A DNA stretch of 64,000 nucleotides from Chloroflexota bacterium. Lineage in GTDB: Bacteria; Chloroflexota; Dehalococcoidia; Lucifugimonadales; Lucifugimonadaceae. How positions within the stretch are numbered: the first letter of the stretch is position 1; the number at the start of each line of letters is the position of its first letter. Position numbers and translations under genes: made by a program. The notes beneath the pieces are model-generated. The model was not told the DNA's origin. It did no database searches and saw nothing but the letters and a program-made list of their open reading frames with translations. The stretch covers positions 1-64,000 of the forward strand of contig VXSB01000011.1 in NCBI GenBank assembly GCA_009838175.1, read 5' to 3'. Shown here one piece after another: positions 12,702 to 52,016 of the stretch.

Positions 12702-12770
12702 CGTCATTCCAGCGCAGGCTGGAATCCAAAGGGGAGGTATCAGGGACCTCGGAGACCGGAATGACGCTAA
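12702..12770. repeat. Palindromic repeat, family A, copy 1
   Basis: CCGTCATTCCAGCGCAGGCT followed by GGAATCC forms a hairpin, and a second half-site GACCGGAATGACG lies at about 12754-12766. It is a diverged copy of the element at 44426 and 50852. It lies between the enolase gene and nth and overlaps neither core domain. Confidence 0.75.
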
Positions 12771-42166: not shown

Positions 42167-42210
42167 TTCCCCCTCCCTCGATGGGAGAGGGCTAGGATGA
42201 GGGTGAAGGA
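42167..42210. repeat. Family-B palindromic repeat, intergenic
   Basis: CCCCCTCCCTCGATGGGAGAG is followed by GGCTAGGATGAGGGTGAAGG. This is close to the fullest form of the unit and sits in the 212-base divergent gap before the lipoprotein gene. Confidence 0.85.
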
Positions 42211-44355: not shown

Positions 44356-44397
44356 ATTCCCCTCTCTCTCGATGGGAGAGGGTTAGGGTGAAGGTGA
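44356..44397. repeat. Family-B palindromic repeat, intergenic
   Basis: CCCCTCTCTCTCGATGGGAG is followed by AGGGTTAGGGTGAAGGTG. It sits between two convergent enolase-type genes, next to a family-A unit. Confidence 0.85.
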
Positions 44398-44425: not shown

Positions 44426-44457
44426 CGTCATTCCGGCGAAAGCCGGAATCCAGAGGG
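44426..44457. repeat. Palindromic repeat, family A, copy 2
   Basis: CGTCATTCCGGCGAAAGCCG continues into GAATCCAGAGG; ATTCCGGC and GCCGGAAT pair around GAAA. The copy in ileS has the same core. Confidence 0.85.
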
Positions 44458-45740: not shown

Positions 45741-47486
45741 ATGACCGAGGACACTAACGGTCTTTTGAGCGCAGGAACTGTTGACGAACTCCGCGAACGC
45801 GGTTGCACAGTGATCACAGGCGGCGGGCACACAATCGCTGTCTTCGCCAAAGACGAGACCTTCGCCGCCGTCGACAACCGCTGTCCTCACATGGGCTTCC
45901 CGCTCGACCGCGGAACCGTCAAAAACGGCATCCTTACCTGCCACTGGCACCACGCCCGCTTCGACCTCGCGAGCGGCGGCACCTTTGATCCCTTCGCCGA
46001 CGATGTCCGATCATTCCCCGTAACCGTCATCGACAACACCGTTTACGTCGACCCGAATCCACCCGAACGAGACCCCGTCGAACGCTGGTCCAAACGCCTA
46101 AACGAGGGCATGGAAGACAATATCCGACTCGTCATCGCCAAATCCGTTCTCGGCCTCAACTCGTCACCGGCCGACTACCGCACGCCTCTCACCATCGGAG
46201 CCATATTCGGTACGACGTATTCCAACGACGGCTGGGGCCCCGCCCTCAGCATGCTCACCAGCACCGCAAACTTTCTACATCTCTTGCAACCCGATGATCG
46301 ACCTCTTGCCCTCTACCAAGGTCTGCGGCAAGTAGCCACAGAGTGCGCCGGACAACCCCCGCGCTTCATCGTCGAACCCTTACCTACCGGCGAAACTCGG
46401 CCCGAGGTCTTCAAGCAATGGTTCCGAGACTTCATCGAGGTCCGAGACACTGACGGTGCCGAGCGCGTTCTTCGAACCACCATCGACCTAGATCTACCCC
46501 AACGCGAAATACACGACATCATCTTCGCCGCCGCGACGGACCGAATCTACATCGACGCGGGGCACGTTGTCGACTTCTGCAACAAAGCATTCGAACTGCT
46601 CGACCACATCGGCTGGGAGCACGCGGCGCAAGTCCTAACCTCCCTCGTCAGAGGCATGGCCACTGCACGCCGCAGCGAAGAACTGAACTCATGGCGAAAC
46701 CCAATCGACCTTGTTTCATTAGTCTGGGAAGCCCGAAACGCGCTACCGAAACTATGGGAACAAAGCGCGAGCGTCCGAGGCACCTGGACCGACCACGACA
46801 ACCTCCCAGAAACCATCCTCGGCGACGATCCCTACATAACAATCGCGTCAATCAACGAAGCCATCCGTAACGGAGCAACCGCCGAGCAACTTGGTGGCAA
46901 GGTCGCATACGCCGCCTTCCTCCGCATGGCACGCTTCCACACTTCGAACGAATTCGGCGACTGGGACACCGTCCACAACACGCTCACCGCGGCCAACGCA
47001 CTCCACCAAGCTCTCGATCGTGCACCTTCGATAGAGCTTCTACGCGCTGTCTACGACACCGCCATGAGCATCTACCTCGATCGATTCCTCAACATGCCGC
47101 CGCAACGCATTCCGGGGCCCTCATCCAATGGAACGACCGATAGCCTACCACGAGAGCTCCTCAATGCGATGAACTCTCAACAACAAGTCGAGCAATCCGC
47201 AAAGCTCGTCACCGACTTCGTAGCGAACGCTTCGGAACCAGATGACATTATGCCCACACTTGCACACGCAATGCTCCGCGAAGACTCCTCGTTCCACCAT
47301 TTCCAGATCGTTGACGCAGCCATCAAACAATACCAACACCGAAAACCGAACCCCTCGGCCCGCCACTCGCTCGTCGCCATGGCACGTTTCCTAGCTGCCC
47401 ACTATCCGACACCCAGATCCGTCAACCAGACATACAACATCGCCGTGCGCCTCCAACGAGGCGACGAGATCTTCAGCGAGGCTTAA
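45741..47486 (+). CDS. Rieske [2Fe-2S] protein with long uncharacterised C-terminal domain
   Basis: A 581-residue fusion. The N-terminal Rieske ferredoxin domain (about 1-110) has C48-P-H50 and C67-H-W-H70, the complete cluster ligand set. The remaining 470 residues are mostly helical and match no family I can name. They carry His-bearing helices such as IYIDAGHVVDFCNKAFELLD and IGWEHA that could bind metal. The Rieske domain would pass electrons to this domain or act as a docking module. AAGGAGG gives start 45741. No ferredoxin reductase is nearby. It overlaps the glycosidase-like gene tail to tail by 4 bases. Confidence 0.78.
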   Translation: MTEDTNGLLSAGTVDELRERGCTVITGGGHTIAVFAKDETFAAVDNRCPHMGFPLDRGTVKNGILTCHWHHARFDLASGGTFDPFADDVRSFPVTVIDNTVYVDPNPPERDPVERWSKRLNEGMEDNIRLVIAKSVLGLNSSPADYRTPLTIGAIFGTTYSNDGWGPALSMLTSTANFLHLLQPDDRPLALYQGLRQVATECAGQPPRFIVEPLPTGETRPEVFKQWFRDFIEVRDTDGAERVLRTTIDLDLPQREIHDIIFAAATDRIYIDAGHVVDFCNKAFELLDHIGWEHAAQVLTSLVRGMATARRSEELNSWRNPIDLVSLVWEARNALPKLWEQSASVRGTWTDHDNLPETILGDDPYITIASINEAIRNGATAEQLGGKVAYAAFLRMARFHTSNEFGDWDTVHNTLTAANALHQALDRAPSIELLRAVYDTAMSIYLDRFLNMPPQRIPGPSSNGTTDSLPRELLNAMNSQQQVEQSAKLVTDFVANASEPDDIMPTLAHAMLREDSSFHHFQIVDAAIKQYQHRKPNPSARHSLVAMARFLAAHYPTPRSVNQTYNIAVRLQRGDEIFSEA

Positions 47487-48619
47487 GGAGCTTCGCCGGT
47501 AATCTCGCTCAATAGATCGAAGAACCCCTGCTTCCGCGGCGTATTGATGCCCCAGTTGACGGGCACGTTCTGGTACCCGTCGCGGTAATCGCCGAACTCT
47601 GATTTACCACCCGCGGCATCACCCGGATCGAAGTAGCCCCATGATGCATACGCTGACAGCGCTGAGAGGAAATTGTTTTCGGGCTTGTCAAAGTCGAAAT
47701 GATCGTCCTCAGTAAACAGGATCGGCTTCTCCGTATAGCTCGGTAACGCCCGAGTATCTGCGACCATCCCCGCGATCCGAGCCGGCTCTGTTACCCCATT
47801 GCCGTGAACCATGATGTAATCGGATACCGCGGCTACATCGTCATCAGGCACTCTTCCCCCGCCATACGAAGTCCCGACCAGCAAGCGCCTCCCGCCAACT
47901 TGTATAGCCTGCGCCCGTTCAATCAGCTCCGCAACCCGATGCGGCTGCAGAATCTCATGCTCGTATCGCCGAATATTCGCCTCGTTGTTGATCTCGATTA
48001 ACACATTTCCATAACCCGATTCCAGTACCCATCGAGTCGCATCATCAACCGCACGACAAACCGCGCGCTCATCCACTAATCGCTCATCTTGCCCAAAGTA
48101 GAAATATCCAAGTATTACAGCCATCCCCAATCGATCACAAGCCGCAATCAACCGCTCTGTCCGATCCTGAAATGCCGATTTCAACGAACCATCCGGATTG
48201 AACGCGGAGTTGTACCAAGGCTGGGAATCCGTACCCGGCAACCCTGCCCAAACCACATCATCGTCGACCTCAATCCCCCTCTCCGCCATATTCTCACGAA
48301 ACATCGGCTCCCTGTAGTACCCAGTCGGACTTCCGCCCTGCAAGTTCACCGTAACTGCCAGCAACCCATGCGACCGATACACCGGCAACATCGCAATGAA
48401 CTCGTCCGTATTCCGATCCGCGTCCCACTCGCCATTATCCGGATACGCAAACAACTCTCGCGTCACTGGATTCTCATCGTCGAACACCGCATTCGTCATG
48501 CGGCTGTTCATCAGGAGGCCTTCAACATTCCAACCTTGGTACCTCCGTCCCTCGTAGGTCGACCGACCGTTTATCAGCCACCGTTCGCCTTCAATGCTTA
48601 AATGAGTTTTCGAAGCCAT
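47483..48619 (-). CDS. Glycoside hydrolase-like TIM-barrel protein
   Basis: A 378-residue putative glycosidase of clan-A type. LIEINNEANI at 207-216 carries the Asn-Glu pair (N212-E213) that serves as acid/base in such enzymes, and ILFTEDD at 300-306 (E304) is the candidate nucleophile. LAVTVNLQGGSPTGYY and the final WGYFDPGDAAGG also fit. No signal peptide is present. AGGTG upstream supports the start at 48619 over 48661. Substrate is unknown. Confidence 0.68.
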   Translation of the reverse strand: MASKTHLSIEGERWLINGRSTYEGRRYQGWNVEGLLMNSRMTNAVFDDENPVTRELFAYPDNGEWDADRNTDEFIAMLPVYRSHGLLAVTVNLQGGSPTGYYREPMFRENMAERGIEVDDDVVWAGLPGTDSQPWYNSAFNPDGSLKSAFQDRTERLIAACDRLGMAVILGYFYFGQDERLVDERAVCRAVDDATRWVLESGYGNVLIEINNEANIRRYEHEILQPHRVAELIERAQAIQVGGRRLLVGTSYGGGRVPDDDVAAVSDYIMVHGNGVTEPARIAGMVADTRALPSYTEKPILFTEDDHFDFDKPENNFLSALSAYASWGYFDPGDAAGGKSEFGDYRDGYQNVPVNWGINTPRKQGFFDLLSEITGEAP

Positions 48620-48746
48620 AACACCTAGCGCCTTTTTCGGCGGACTGTCGCAACGATTCAACCCGACTTGTCATATGCGCAGACAGGTCAAGGAAAGAGG
48701 TTAACTTACACTTTTGTTAGTGCCTGCCATAACCGAAAAATCAAGA

Positions 48747-51700
48747 ATGACGCAGACAACCGAACTACCCGACACTGCCCAATCCAGCTCCTTCGACCCC
48801 GTGCTACCCGAAGCCGAAGTCGACTTCGTCGAGATCGAAACCCAATGGCTCGAGCGGTGGAACACGCCCAACGCAGACGGTCAAACCATCATTGACCGCT
48901 ACCTCACCCGCAACAACGAAGCCGAGAAGAACTACTCCTTCATCGACGGACCAATCACAGCCAACAACCCCATGGGCGTCCACCACGCGTGGGGACGAAC
49001 CTACAAAGACCTATTCCTCCGATTCCGGAACATGCAGGGGTATCGCCAGCGCTTCCAGAACGGATACGACGGACAAGGACTCTGGATCGAAGTCGAGGTC
49101 GAAAAAGAAAAAGGCTTCAAATCCAAGCACGAAATCGAAACATACGGTGTCGACAAATTCGTCACCGAGTGTAAAGCCCGCGTCGATCACTTTTCCGACA
49201 TCATTACGCGTCAATCGAAACGCCTCGGCTACTTCATGCAGTGGGACGACTCGTACCACACCAAATCTGACGAAAACAACTACACGATCTGGGCCTTCCT
49301 CAAGCGATGCCACGACAACGGTTGGCTTTACAAAGGCAAAGACGTGATGCCATGGTGCCCGCGCTGCGGTACCGGCATGTCGCAACACGAAATCGCCACC
49401 GAGGGTTATGCCGAGATCGTTCACCCCGGGTTCTTCATCCGACTACCCCTACTTGACCGCGACGGCGAAGCTCTTCTGGTCTGGACCACAACTCCGTGGA
49501 CCCTGGCCGCCAACGTCGCCGCGGCGGTCAATCCTGAGAACGACTACGTCAAGGTACGCAACACCGTCGGGGATGTCTCTCTGACTCTATGGTTAAGCGC
49601 TAACCGACTGCACGTCTTGGACGGCAAACACGAAGTCCTTGAACACGCCAAGGGCACCCATCTCGTCGGATGGCGATACCGCGGTCCATTCGACGATCTC
49701 GAAGCCCAATCCGAAGCCCGCGAACAACACCGCGTCATCGAATGGGAAGACGTTGGCGACGAGGAAGGCACGGGCATCGTGCACATCGCGCCCGGCGCCG
49801 GTTCCGAAGACTTCCAACTCGGCAAAGAAAACGATCTGCCCGTCATCGCTCCGCTCGACGAGAGCGGCGTCTACGTCGACGGCTTCGGCGTCCTAAGTGG
49901 CAAATCGGTAGACGAAGTAAACCCCATCATCTTCGACCTGCTGCGCGACAGCGGCGTCTACTACAAGCTCGAAGACTACGAACACCGCTACCCGGTATGC
50001 TGGCGATGCAGCTCCGAGCTCGTGTTCCGATTGGTCGACGAGTGGTTCATCTCGATGGATGAGTTGCGCCATACGATGATGGACGCAACGCGCACCATCA
50101 AATGGGTGCCTGCTTTCGGCGAAGCCAGGGAACTCGATTGGCTCCGCAACATGCAGGACTGGATGATCTCGAAGAAGAGGTACTACGGTCTCGCCCTTCC
50201 AATCTACGAATGTACCGATTGCCCCAACTTCGATGTCATCGGATCTCGCGATGAACTGCGAGCCCGGGCCGTCGAAGGGTGGGACGAATACGACGGTCAT
50301 TCGCCCCATCGTCCATGGATCGACGCCATCAAAATCAAATGCTCGAAGTGCGACGACCCGATCGAGCGGATCGCAGACGTAGGTAACGCGTGGTTAGACG
50401 CCGGCATCGTCAGCTTCTCCACCCTGGCCTACAACAACGACCGCGACTATTGGCGAGACTGGTTCCCTGCCGATTGGATATCAGAATCGTTCCCGGGGCA
50501 ATTCCGGAACTGGTTCTACTCCCTGATCTGTATGTCCGCCGCCCTCGAAGGCGTCGCGCCTACCAGAGCCGTCTTCTCGTATGGCTTGATGCGAGACGAA
50601 AACGGCGAAGAGATGCACAAGTCAAAGGGCAACGCGATCCCCTTCGAAGAGGCTGCTGACAAGATGGGCGCCGATGTCATGCGATGGATCTTCGCGCGCC
50701 ACATTCCGCAGAACAACCTCAACTTCGGATATGGAGTTGGCGACGCGGCCCGCAGGCGATTCGTATTGCCACTGTGGAACATCTACTACTTCTTCACCAC
50801 CTACGCGCGTCTTGACGGCTGGATGCCCGCACCTCATTCCGACACAACCAACCGTCATTCCGGCGAAAGCCGGAATCCAGAGGAGCGGGGCAACCGGGCC
50901 CTCGTCGAACTAGACCGCTGGGCAATCTCCGAACTCAACGCACTCGTCCGATCAGTCACCGAAGATCTCGAAAACTGGCGCATCGAGCGCGCATCCGAAG
51001 CCATCGAGACGTACGTTGAACGCCTCTCCAACTGGTACGTGCGCCGCTCCCGACGCCGCTTCTGGAAATCAGAAGACGACAACGACAAACAGGACGCGTA
51101 CAACACCCTCTACACCTGCTTGACGACACTTAGCCGCCTCATCGCGCCGATCATGCCATTCATCTCCGAAGAGATCTACACCAACCTCGTAAGCCGGAGA
51201 TGCGACTACGCGCCACAATCCGTGCACCTTGCAGATTGGCCGACGGCAGATGAGAGGGTTATCGACAATGCTTTGGCCCTTCGAACTAACTTGGCGATGC
51301 GCCTCGCGTCGCTGGGTCGCTCAGCCCGATCTGCGGCCCGGATCAAGGTTCGGCAGCCGTTGAATGCCCTAATCGTGGAACTTAACTCACCTCAGGAACG
51401 TGAAGCATTGCCGATGATCGCCGATCAGCTCAAAGAGGAGCTGAATGTCAGGGATGTGCGCGACACTTCGGAGTCCGACAGCCTCATGGCATATCGATTG
51501 CGACCGAACTTGCCAGCGCTGGGTCCGAAGTATGGGCGGCAAGTGAACGAGATCAGAAACTTGCTTAACGAAGCCGATGCGGCCGTCGTGGCAGCCACGG
51601 TCCGCTCCAACGGGATCGTCAACCTCGGCGAATTCGAACTCAATCCCGACGAAATTCTCGTCGACAACGTCGCAGCCGAAGGCTACGCCGTCGAATCCGA

Positions 51701-52016
51701 CGGCACATACACAGTGGGAATAGCGACCGAGGTGTCTCCCGAACTCCGCGCCGAAGGCTACGTCCGGGACATCGCCCACATCGTCCAAAACATGCGCAAA
51801 AACGCCGGACTGGAAATCTCCGACCGCATCCATCTGACCATCAACGCGCCCGAGGGTAGCGACGTGGCAACCGCCATAGCCAACCACACCGACTACATCG
51901 CAAACGAGACGCTCGCCATTGGCATCAATGGCGAGATTGCAGACGAAGTTGCGCGCGACCGCCATAGCGTGGATGGGGTAGAGGTTGAGATCGCGCTCGC
52001 CAAATCCACTGTTTAA
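48747..52016 (+). CDS. ileS: Isoleucyl-tRNA synthetase
   Basis: Class I synthetase charging tRNA-Ile, 1089 residues, of the longer, eukaryote-like type. The HIGH box is NPMGVHHAWGR, the editing domain includes LVWTTTPWTLAANVAAAVNP, and the KMSKS box is EMHKSKGNAIPF. HIAPGAGSEDF is in the editing region. A stretch at about 702-713 reads NRHSGESRNPEE and is encoded by a palindromic repeat in frame, between the catalytic core and the anticodon-binding helices. ATG 48747 is used; a TTG at 48714 is possible. Confidence 0.95.
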   Translation: MTQTTELPDTAQSSSFDPVLPEAEVDFVEIETQWLERWNTPNADGQTIIDRYLTRNNEAEKNYSFIDGPITANNPMGVHHAWGRTYKDLFLRFRNMQGYRQRFQNGYDGQGLWIEVEVEKEKGFKSKHEIETYGVDKFVTECKARVDHFSDIITRQSKRLGYFMQWDDSYHTKSDENNYTIWAFLKRCHDNGWLYKGKDVMPWCPRCGTGMSQHEIATEGYAEIVHPGFFIRLPLLDRDGEALLVWTTTPWTLAANVAAAVNPENDYVKVRNTVGDVSLTLWLSANRLHVLDGKHEVLEHAKGTHLVGWRYRGPFDDLEAQSEAREQHRVIEWEDVGDEEGTGIVHIAPGAGSEDFQLGKENDLPVIAPLDESGVYVDGFGVLSGKSVDEVNPIIFDLLRDSGVYYKLEDYEHRYPVCWRCSSELVFRLVDEWFISMDELRHTMMDATRTIKWVPAFGEARELDWLRNMQDWMISKKRYYGLALPIYECTDCPNFDVIGSRDELRARAVEGWDEYDGHSPHRPWIDAIKIKCSKCDDPIERIADVGNAWLDAGIVSFSTLAYNNDRDYWRDWFPADWISESFPGQFRNWFYSLICMSAALEGVAPTRAVFSYGLMRDENGEEMHKSKGNAIPFEEAADKMGADVMRWIFARHIPQNNLNFGYGVGDAARRRFVLPLWNIYYFFTTYARLDGWMPAPHSDTTNRHSGESRNPEERGNRALVELDRWAISELNALVRSVTEDLENWRIERASEAIETYVERLSNWYVRRSRRRFWKSEDDNDKQDAYNTLYTCLTTLSRLIAPIMPFISEEIYTNLVSRRCDYAPQSVHLADWPTADERVIDNALALRTNLAMRLASLGRSARSAARIKVRQPLNALIVELNSPQEREALPMIADQLKEELNVRDVRDTSESDSLMAYRLRPNLPALGPKYGRQVNEIRNLLNEADAAVVAATVRSNGIVNLGEFELNPDEILVDNVAAEGYAVESDGTYTVGIATEVSPELRAEGYVRDIAHIVQNMRKNAGLEISDRIHLTINAPEGSDVATAIANHTDYIANETLAIGINGEIADEVARDRHSVDGVEVEIALAKSTV
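50852..50884. repeat. Palindromic repeat, family A, copy 3, inside ileS
   Basis: CCGTCATTCCGGCGAAAGCC continues into GGAATCCAGAGG. The 8-bp stem with a GAAA loop equals copy 2 (44426). Reading is in frame and gives RHSGESRNP. Confidence 0.92.

Follow-up and report, generated by a model that had tools for sequence, protein, structure and literature searches.

An in-frame CGTC-1-type REP palindrome in the isoleucyl-tRNA synthetase gene of a Chloroflexota bacterium

CGTC repeats are described from five phyla (Proteobacteria, Chlorobi, Bacteroidetes, Spirochaetes and Thermotogae), and the portions of the survey drawn on here name the Chloroflexi for GTAG repeats only (Di Nocera, De Gregorio and Rocco 2013, PMC3733652). 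The same portions of PMC3733652 state that the intragenic repeats RPE-4 and RPE-6 of R. conorii are themselves CGTC repeats, that the Neisseria repeats are counted within CGTC-1, that tRNA synthetase genes are among those interrupted in other species, and that tolerance is possibly explained by flexible linkers. A 2025 survey that used another tool counted REPs in three Chloroflexota species, with CGTC present in its reference list alone (PMC12306157). Nothing specific to REPs of SAR202 turned up in the literature searched. The Neisseria dRS3 repeat, which is abundant and mosaic, has the core ATTCCC-N8-GGGAAT.

In the window (the whole 64,000-nucleotide stretch of DNA that was analysed), ileS occupies positions 48753 to 52016 of the forward strand and, as judged from the ORF and Pfam, encodes an isoleucyl-tRNA synthetase (IleRS) of 1087 aa in an intact frame; a second ileS was looked for in the genome and was not found. 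At 50853-50879 on the same strand, the gene contains CGTC-ATTCCGGC-GAAA-GCCGGAAT-CCA, in full the 27 bases CGTCATTCCGGCGAAAGCCGGAATCCA, which fold into a GAAA loop on an 8-bp stem. The codons CGT CAT TCC GGC GAA AGC CGG AAT CCA are in frame and are read as RHSGESRNP, residues 701-709, and thus the stem/GAAA-loop palindrome of the original prediction was confirmed together with its translation. On the evidence of sequence, copy search and fold, with the stem ATTCCGGC/GCCGGAAT, the loop GAAA and the tail CCA, the element is a CGTC-1-type REP, that is, a known kind of repeat in a newly documented phylum. The repeat-like DNA in ileS also includes a left half-unit, CTCATTCCG, located at 50833-50841 (+), 21 nt before the full element, and a 3′ tail, GAGGAGCGGGGC, at 50880-50891 (+). 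The family consensus of this tail is GAGGGGCGGGGC; AGAGGGG in the tail is conserved over 78 copies, and there is a 46-bp match to C8:72407.

The ileS element was identical at 27 of 27 bases to the intergenic copy claimed at 44426, which spans 44426-44452 (+) and is flanked by two enolase-superfamily-like genes. There were two exact 27-base matches in the window, compared to an expectation of 0 from shuffles, and a loose pattern matched the whole genome 91 times, compared to once for the reversed control. A structured search, which supplied the genome count proposed earlier, put the number of copies in the genome (2.64 Mb) at about 78, with 18 of 78 inside ORFs of at least 150 aa; this is a depletion, as 80% of random positions fall in such ORFs. 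One of the copies found in the genome, at 12702-12728 (+) in the window, is a variant with the compensated stem GTCATTCCAGCGCAGGCTGGAATCC. Compensated stem variants among the approximately 78 copies were GG/CC, CG/CG, TG/CA and AG/CT, with stem position 8/17 covarying as G-C, C-G, T-A and A-T, and the loops were GAAA, GCAG, GAAG and GTAG. The tag GTC was found in nearly all of the 78 copies, preceded by C in 67, and in the tail, an A followed CC in 72. We refer to the genome under study as G000 and to its six congeners as G001 to G006, some of these seven genomes being incomplete; across the seven, the CGTC copy number ranged from 4 to 128, with 0 for the reversed-pattern control. Inverted pairs less than 150 bp apart numbered only two in G000, and several were present within clusters in G003.

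The linker of IleRS is polar and variable in all relatives, and a peptide such as RHSGESRNP could for that reason be regarded as ordinary linker sequence that resembles the repeat by chance. We give this view almost no credence, because 27 of 27 bases equal a 78-copy repeat that is accompanied by its half-unit and tail, shuffles yield an expectation of 0, and the linkers of 27 other species are without such a likeness; copy number and shuffles together rule it out.

The original prediction placed the element at the junction between the catalytic core and the anticodon-binding helices of an essential enzyme that tolerates it, and this position was borne out by the Pfam domains tRNA-synt_1 (residues 49-649) and Anticodon_1 (residues 721-872), between which the insert is found. 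AlphaFold2, with 39 sequences as input, modelled residues 695-714 as the only internal segment with a pLDDT below 50, located between helices 660-688 and 719-740, and solved IleRS structures have a gap at the insert position. The insert therefore sits in a loop, predicted to be disordered, that separates the catalytic core from the anticodon-binding helices. The CGTC element is open in five of its six frames, which means that in a permissive loop most insertions would be readable.

The nearest named ileS records were those of SAR202/Dehalococcoidia MAGs, several of which we take to have come from sponges or corals. The length of the loop between GW and ELDRW was 28 aa in G000, 19 in G001, 20 in G003 and G004, and 15 in G002, G005 and G006. 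Genome G001 represents the closest species (90% DNA identity in ileS), and its ileS is without the element. The clean insertion of 10-15 residues that had been expected was not what we found: the flanks of the element also differ, and the loop is 28 aa compared to 15-20 aa in the congeners. The expected pattern of presence and absence held in part, in that an intact copy was absent from G001, G002, G005 and G006, but G003 and G004 contained a decayed relic in the same place, orientation and frame (HSSEPGNP and HSGEPGNR, respectively), in which the palindrome is lost. When the element consensus was locally aligned with the ileS loops, the scores were 74 for G000, 39 for G003 and 36 for G004, whereas those of 27 other relatives were 19 or less. 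The likeness of the G003/G004 relic had a p of ~0.0005 relative to codon or base shuffles; the likeness of the G001 loop to a relic of the element was not significant. We also looked at this place for homologous residues encoded by DNA that does not match the element, which the original prediction had regarded as contrary evidence, and it was found that the 27 relatives outside G003/G004 had no related loop DNA, and that G003/G004 had related residues together with decayed element DNA.

The relic in G003/G004, having the same orientation and frame, could mean that the insertion is old and shared, not recent. An old insertion in the ancestor of G000, G001, G003 and G004, subsequently decayed in G003/G004, lost from G001 and either preserved or renewed in G000, whether through gene conversion with one of the many intact copies as donor or through selection acting on the hairpin, is a history that we regard as possible but doubtful. 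The shared place, orientation and frame and the p value speak for it, as does the grouping of G003 and G004 as one clade. However, the G000 copy agrees with the consensus at all 27 positions, despite an identity of just 55% between the ileS genes of G000 and G003 at third codon positions, the nearest species G001 shows no trace, and another loop, described below, has clearly been hit independently in different frames. The G000 ileS copy was either inserted recently, as a second event, or has been refreshed.

We conclude that, very probably, a CGTC-1-type REP, a short non-autonomous repeat, entered ileS in the G000 lineage, or alternatively was renewed there by gene conversion from another copy, and was tolerated in the loop. 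Its survival would be explained by an element that is open in the ileS frame and by a disordered loop where the IleRS of the genus already varies in length and sequence. The element most likely does nothing for IleRS, with selection purging harmful copies only, and we judge the ileS copy to be a tolerated passenger. The identity, copy number, frame and loop position of the element, its presence or absence in relatives, and the absence of two transposase classes were observed directly. The element presumably moved as DNA, is probably neutral, and may have been spread by some enzyme or by a replication or recombination process.

Among the G001 copies with comparable flanks in G000, 5 were shared and at least 2 were absent in G000. 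Such presence and absence between close species, together with the differences in copy number and independent hits in other frames, indicates that the repeats move or are copied. Neither a Y1/RAYT transposase (Y1_Tnp) nor an IS110 transposase (DEDD_Tnp_IS110) was detected in the seven congeneric genomes, some of which are incomplete, which makes it unlikely that either class, though both are frequently cited in connection with REPs, moves the repeats at present. Two candidates were accordingly rejected, namely a RAYT and, by analogy with the phage integration at dRS3 in Neisseria, an IS110/Piv enzyme. For ileS, we did not obtain an exact empty site showing a target duplication, and because the loop around the element differs too, the insertion joints in ileS are not proven.

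A different interpretation is that the hairpin acts in ileS at the RNA or DNA level, for example, by pausing translation between domains or by binding gyrase or a nucleoid protein. The stem does lie at a domain boundary, but it is absent from the ileS of other congeners, and the G003/G004 relic has kept the frame and lost the palindrome, which implies that the hairpin is not needed there. The regional fold energy was just 1.5 sd below that of shuffles, and Rfam gave no match to a known RNA family. We consider a function of this kind improbable.

Copies in other genes were consistent with a passenger that is tolerated in loops. The credible mid-gene copies in recognisable genes were all in variable loops, in secA, a DAO-type oxidoreductase and an MFS transporter. 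The secA copy is read as SFPRRRES, with Pfam SecA domains on either side, and the copies in the oxidoreductase and the transporter are read in frame as MDSRLRGND and LDSRLRGND, respectively. Further copies were located near gene ends, among others those of a methylguanine methyltransferase, signal peptidase II and a LigT-like 2′-5′ RNA ligase. It was found that in three genes, a congener has a different palindrome, or a copy in another frame, in the same loop. Specifically, the secA loop has a CGTC copy in G000 and a different palindrome, GGGACCCCTCCCCCTCCAGAGGGGGAGAATCAAAGAGGGGGTCCC, at the same place in G002, and where the oxidoreductase of G000 has a CGTC copy, that of G001 contains one of the CCCTCTCCC...GGGAGAGGG repeats. 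The third gene is the ORF that adjoins ileS, at 47483-48661 (-) in the window; its orthologues in G003 and G004 share one decayed CGTC copy in a loop, whereas the G005 orthologue has an independent copy in another frame, consisting of a half-unit array plus the full unit SRHTSKDSSHSGEHSRHSGQHSRHSGEGRNP.

That the same protein loops are hit repeatedly is suggestive, four genes being involved. We tentatively raise the possibility, which we would not yet favour, that within the genus the same loops (SecA, the DAO-type oxidoreductase, the neighbouring ORF and IleRS) are colonised, repeatedly and independently, by palindromic repeats of unrelated families, which displace each other and then decay there, in part growing by 21-bp (7-codon) half-unit steps, such that repeats for which no transposase is known might keep supplying essential proteins with fresh loop sequence.

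The half-units were an unexpected extra, in that left half-units in 21-bp steps precede a quarter to a third of the copies. With at most one mismatch allowed, 19 of 78 copies in G000 and 20 of 55 in G003 were preceded by the left half GTCATTCC at a distance of 17-25 nt, with a mode of 21, and there were additional steps near 42 and 61-67 nt. The exact core CATTCC was found upstream of 12 of the 78 copies and downstream of 3, compared to 2 of 234 background windows. Upstream of the ileS copy there is one half-unit, and as the half-unit period is 21, the reading frame is kept. Beyond the genus, half-units were scarcer (4/21 in G147 and G049; 0/20 in G099 and G171), and other flanking sequences are conserved. 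A longer outer stem formed by the upstream flank and the purine-rich tail was also considered and rejected, because the pairing was no better than that with permuted partners.

In another Chloroflexota family (G147, G099, G049 and G171), the CGTC unit is often found within a longer conserved arrangement, GGAGACCTTTGCGTAACCCCTCC-element-AGTCCGGTCGAACCTGGAGG, possibly a small mobile unit whose ends could be defined. A dense array of CGTC units was seen at G003:C4:382155-383992, with inverted pairs about 107 bp apart, 130/259-bp tandem repeats and half-unit runs of 20-23 bp.

Two other repeats were noted near CGTC copies. A second, unrelated palindrome, CCCTCTCCC-N5-GGGAGAGGG, is located at 44360-44382, shortly upstream of the intergenic CGTC copy, and in the form CCCTCTCCC-TCGAT-GGGAGAGGG followed by CTAGGGTGAGGGTGA, it occurs at 42169, 44360 and 58511 of the window. 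Exact-core copies of this repeat numbered 80 in G000, 35 in G001 and 7 or fewer in the other congeners, a lineage-specific expansion. A third, GCGAACGCAGGGGATGCCC-like repeat is often just upstream of CGTC copies in G000 (C8:102863, C23:26651, C59:103254, C54:13044 and C57:26841), and these neighbours form mosaic intergenic regions.

When 400 Chloroflexota genomes were drawn evenly, exact CGTC-1 units were present in 37, representing 20 of 225 genera, with zero for the reversed control. Their distribution is patchy, with the highest number, up to 229 copies, found in genus g72 of family f52.

These results add the Chloroflexota to the known range of CGTC REPs and of their in-frame insertions in essential genes, two of which are hit within this one genome. 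The related genomes offer 4 to 128 copies, orthologous sites that are filled, empty or decayed, and neither of the usual suspect transposases. A comparison of strains can therefore test by what agent CGTC repeats are moved and whether the evolution of protein loops draws on them.

As regards known systems, the element and the CGTC-1 REPs, as portrayed in the portions of PMC3733652 drawn on here, have in common the CGTC tag, an 8-bp stem starting with AT, a 4-nt loop and a CCA tail, and they are also alike in having tens of copies, mostly intergenic and some intragenic, with no linked transposase, as judged here for the Y1 and IS110 classes. They may differ in that HH dimers predominate there (a tendency, not a criterion), as most copies in this genome appear to be single. 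A further difference is the 21-bp left half-unit steps found upstream of many copies here, of which those portions make no mention. The GTAG REPs, associated with RAYTs (Y1 tyrosine transposases), are short tagged palindromes of similar size with known intragenic cases, but the tag here is CGTC, and the seven congeneric genomes yielded no Y1 transposase. When the element is set beside dRS3 of Neisseria by description, a difference is that this genus has no IS110-type enzyme. The original prediction had likened the element to the Rickettsia RPEs and had known of no description for Chloroflexota; the likeness is closer than thought, given what RPE-4 and RPE-6 are, and the five phyla listed for CGTC repeats in those portions do not include the Chloroflexi (PMC3733652). 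The Rickettsia elements belong to a different phylum, and the likeness, again by description, is that of in-frame CGTC palindromes in many unrelated proteins, here those of ileS, secA, the DAO-type oxidoreductase and the MFS transporter (PMC3733652). Intragenic CGTC and GTAG REPs, including those in tRNA synthetase genes, and tolerance by flexible linkers are thus already published, and what is new is the phylum.
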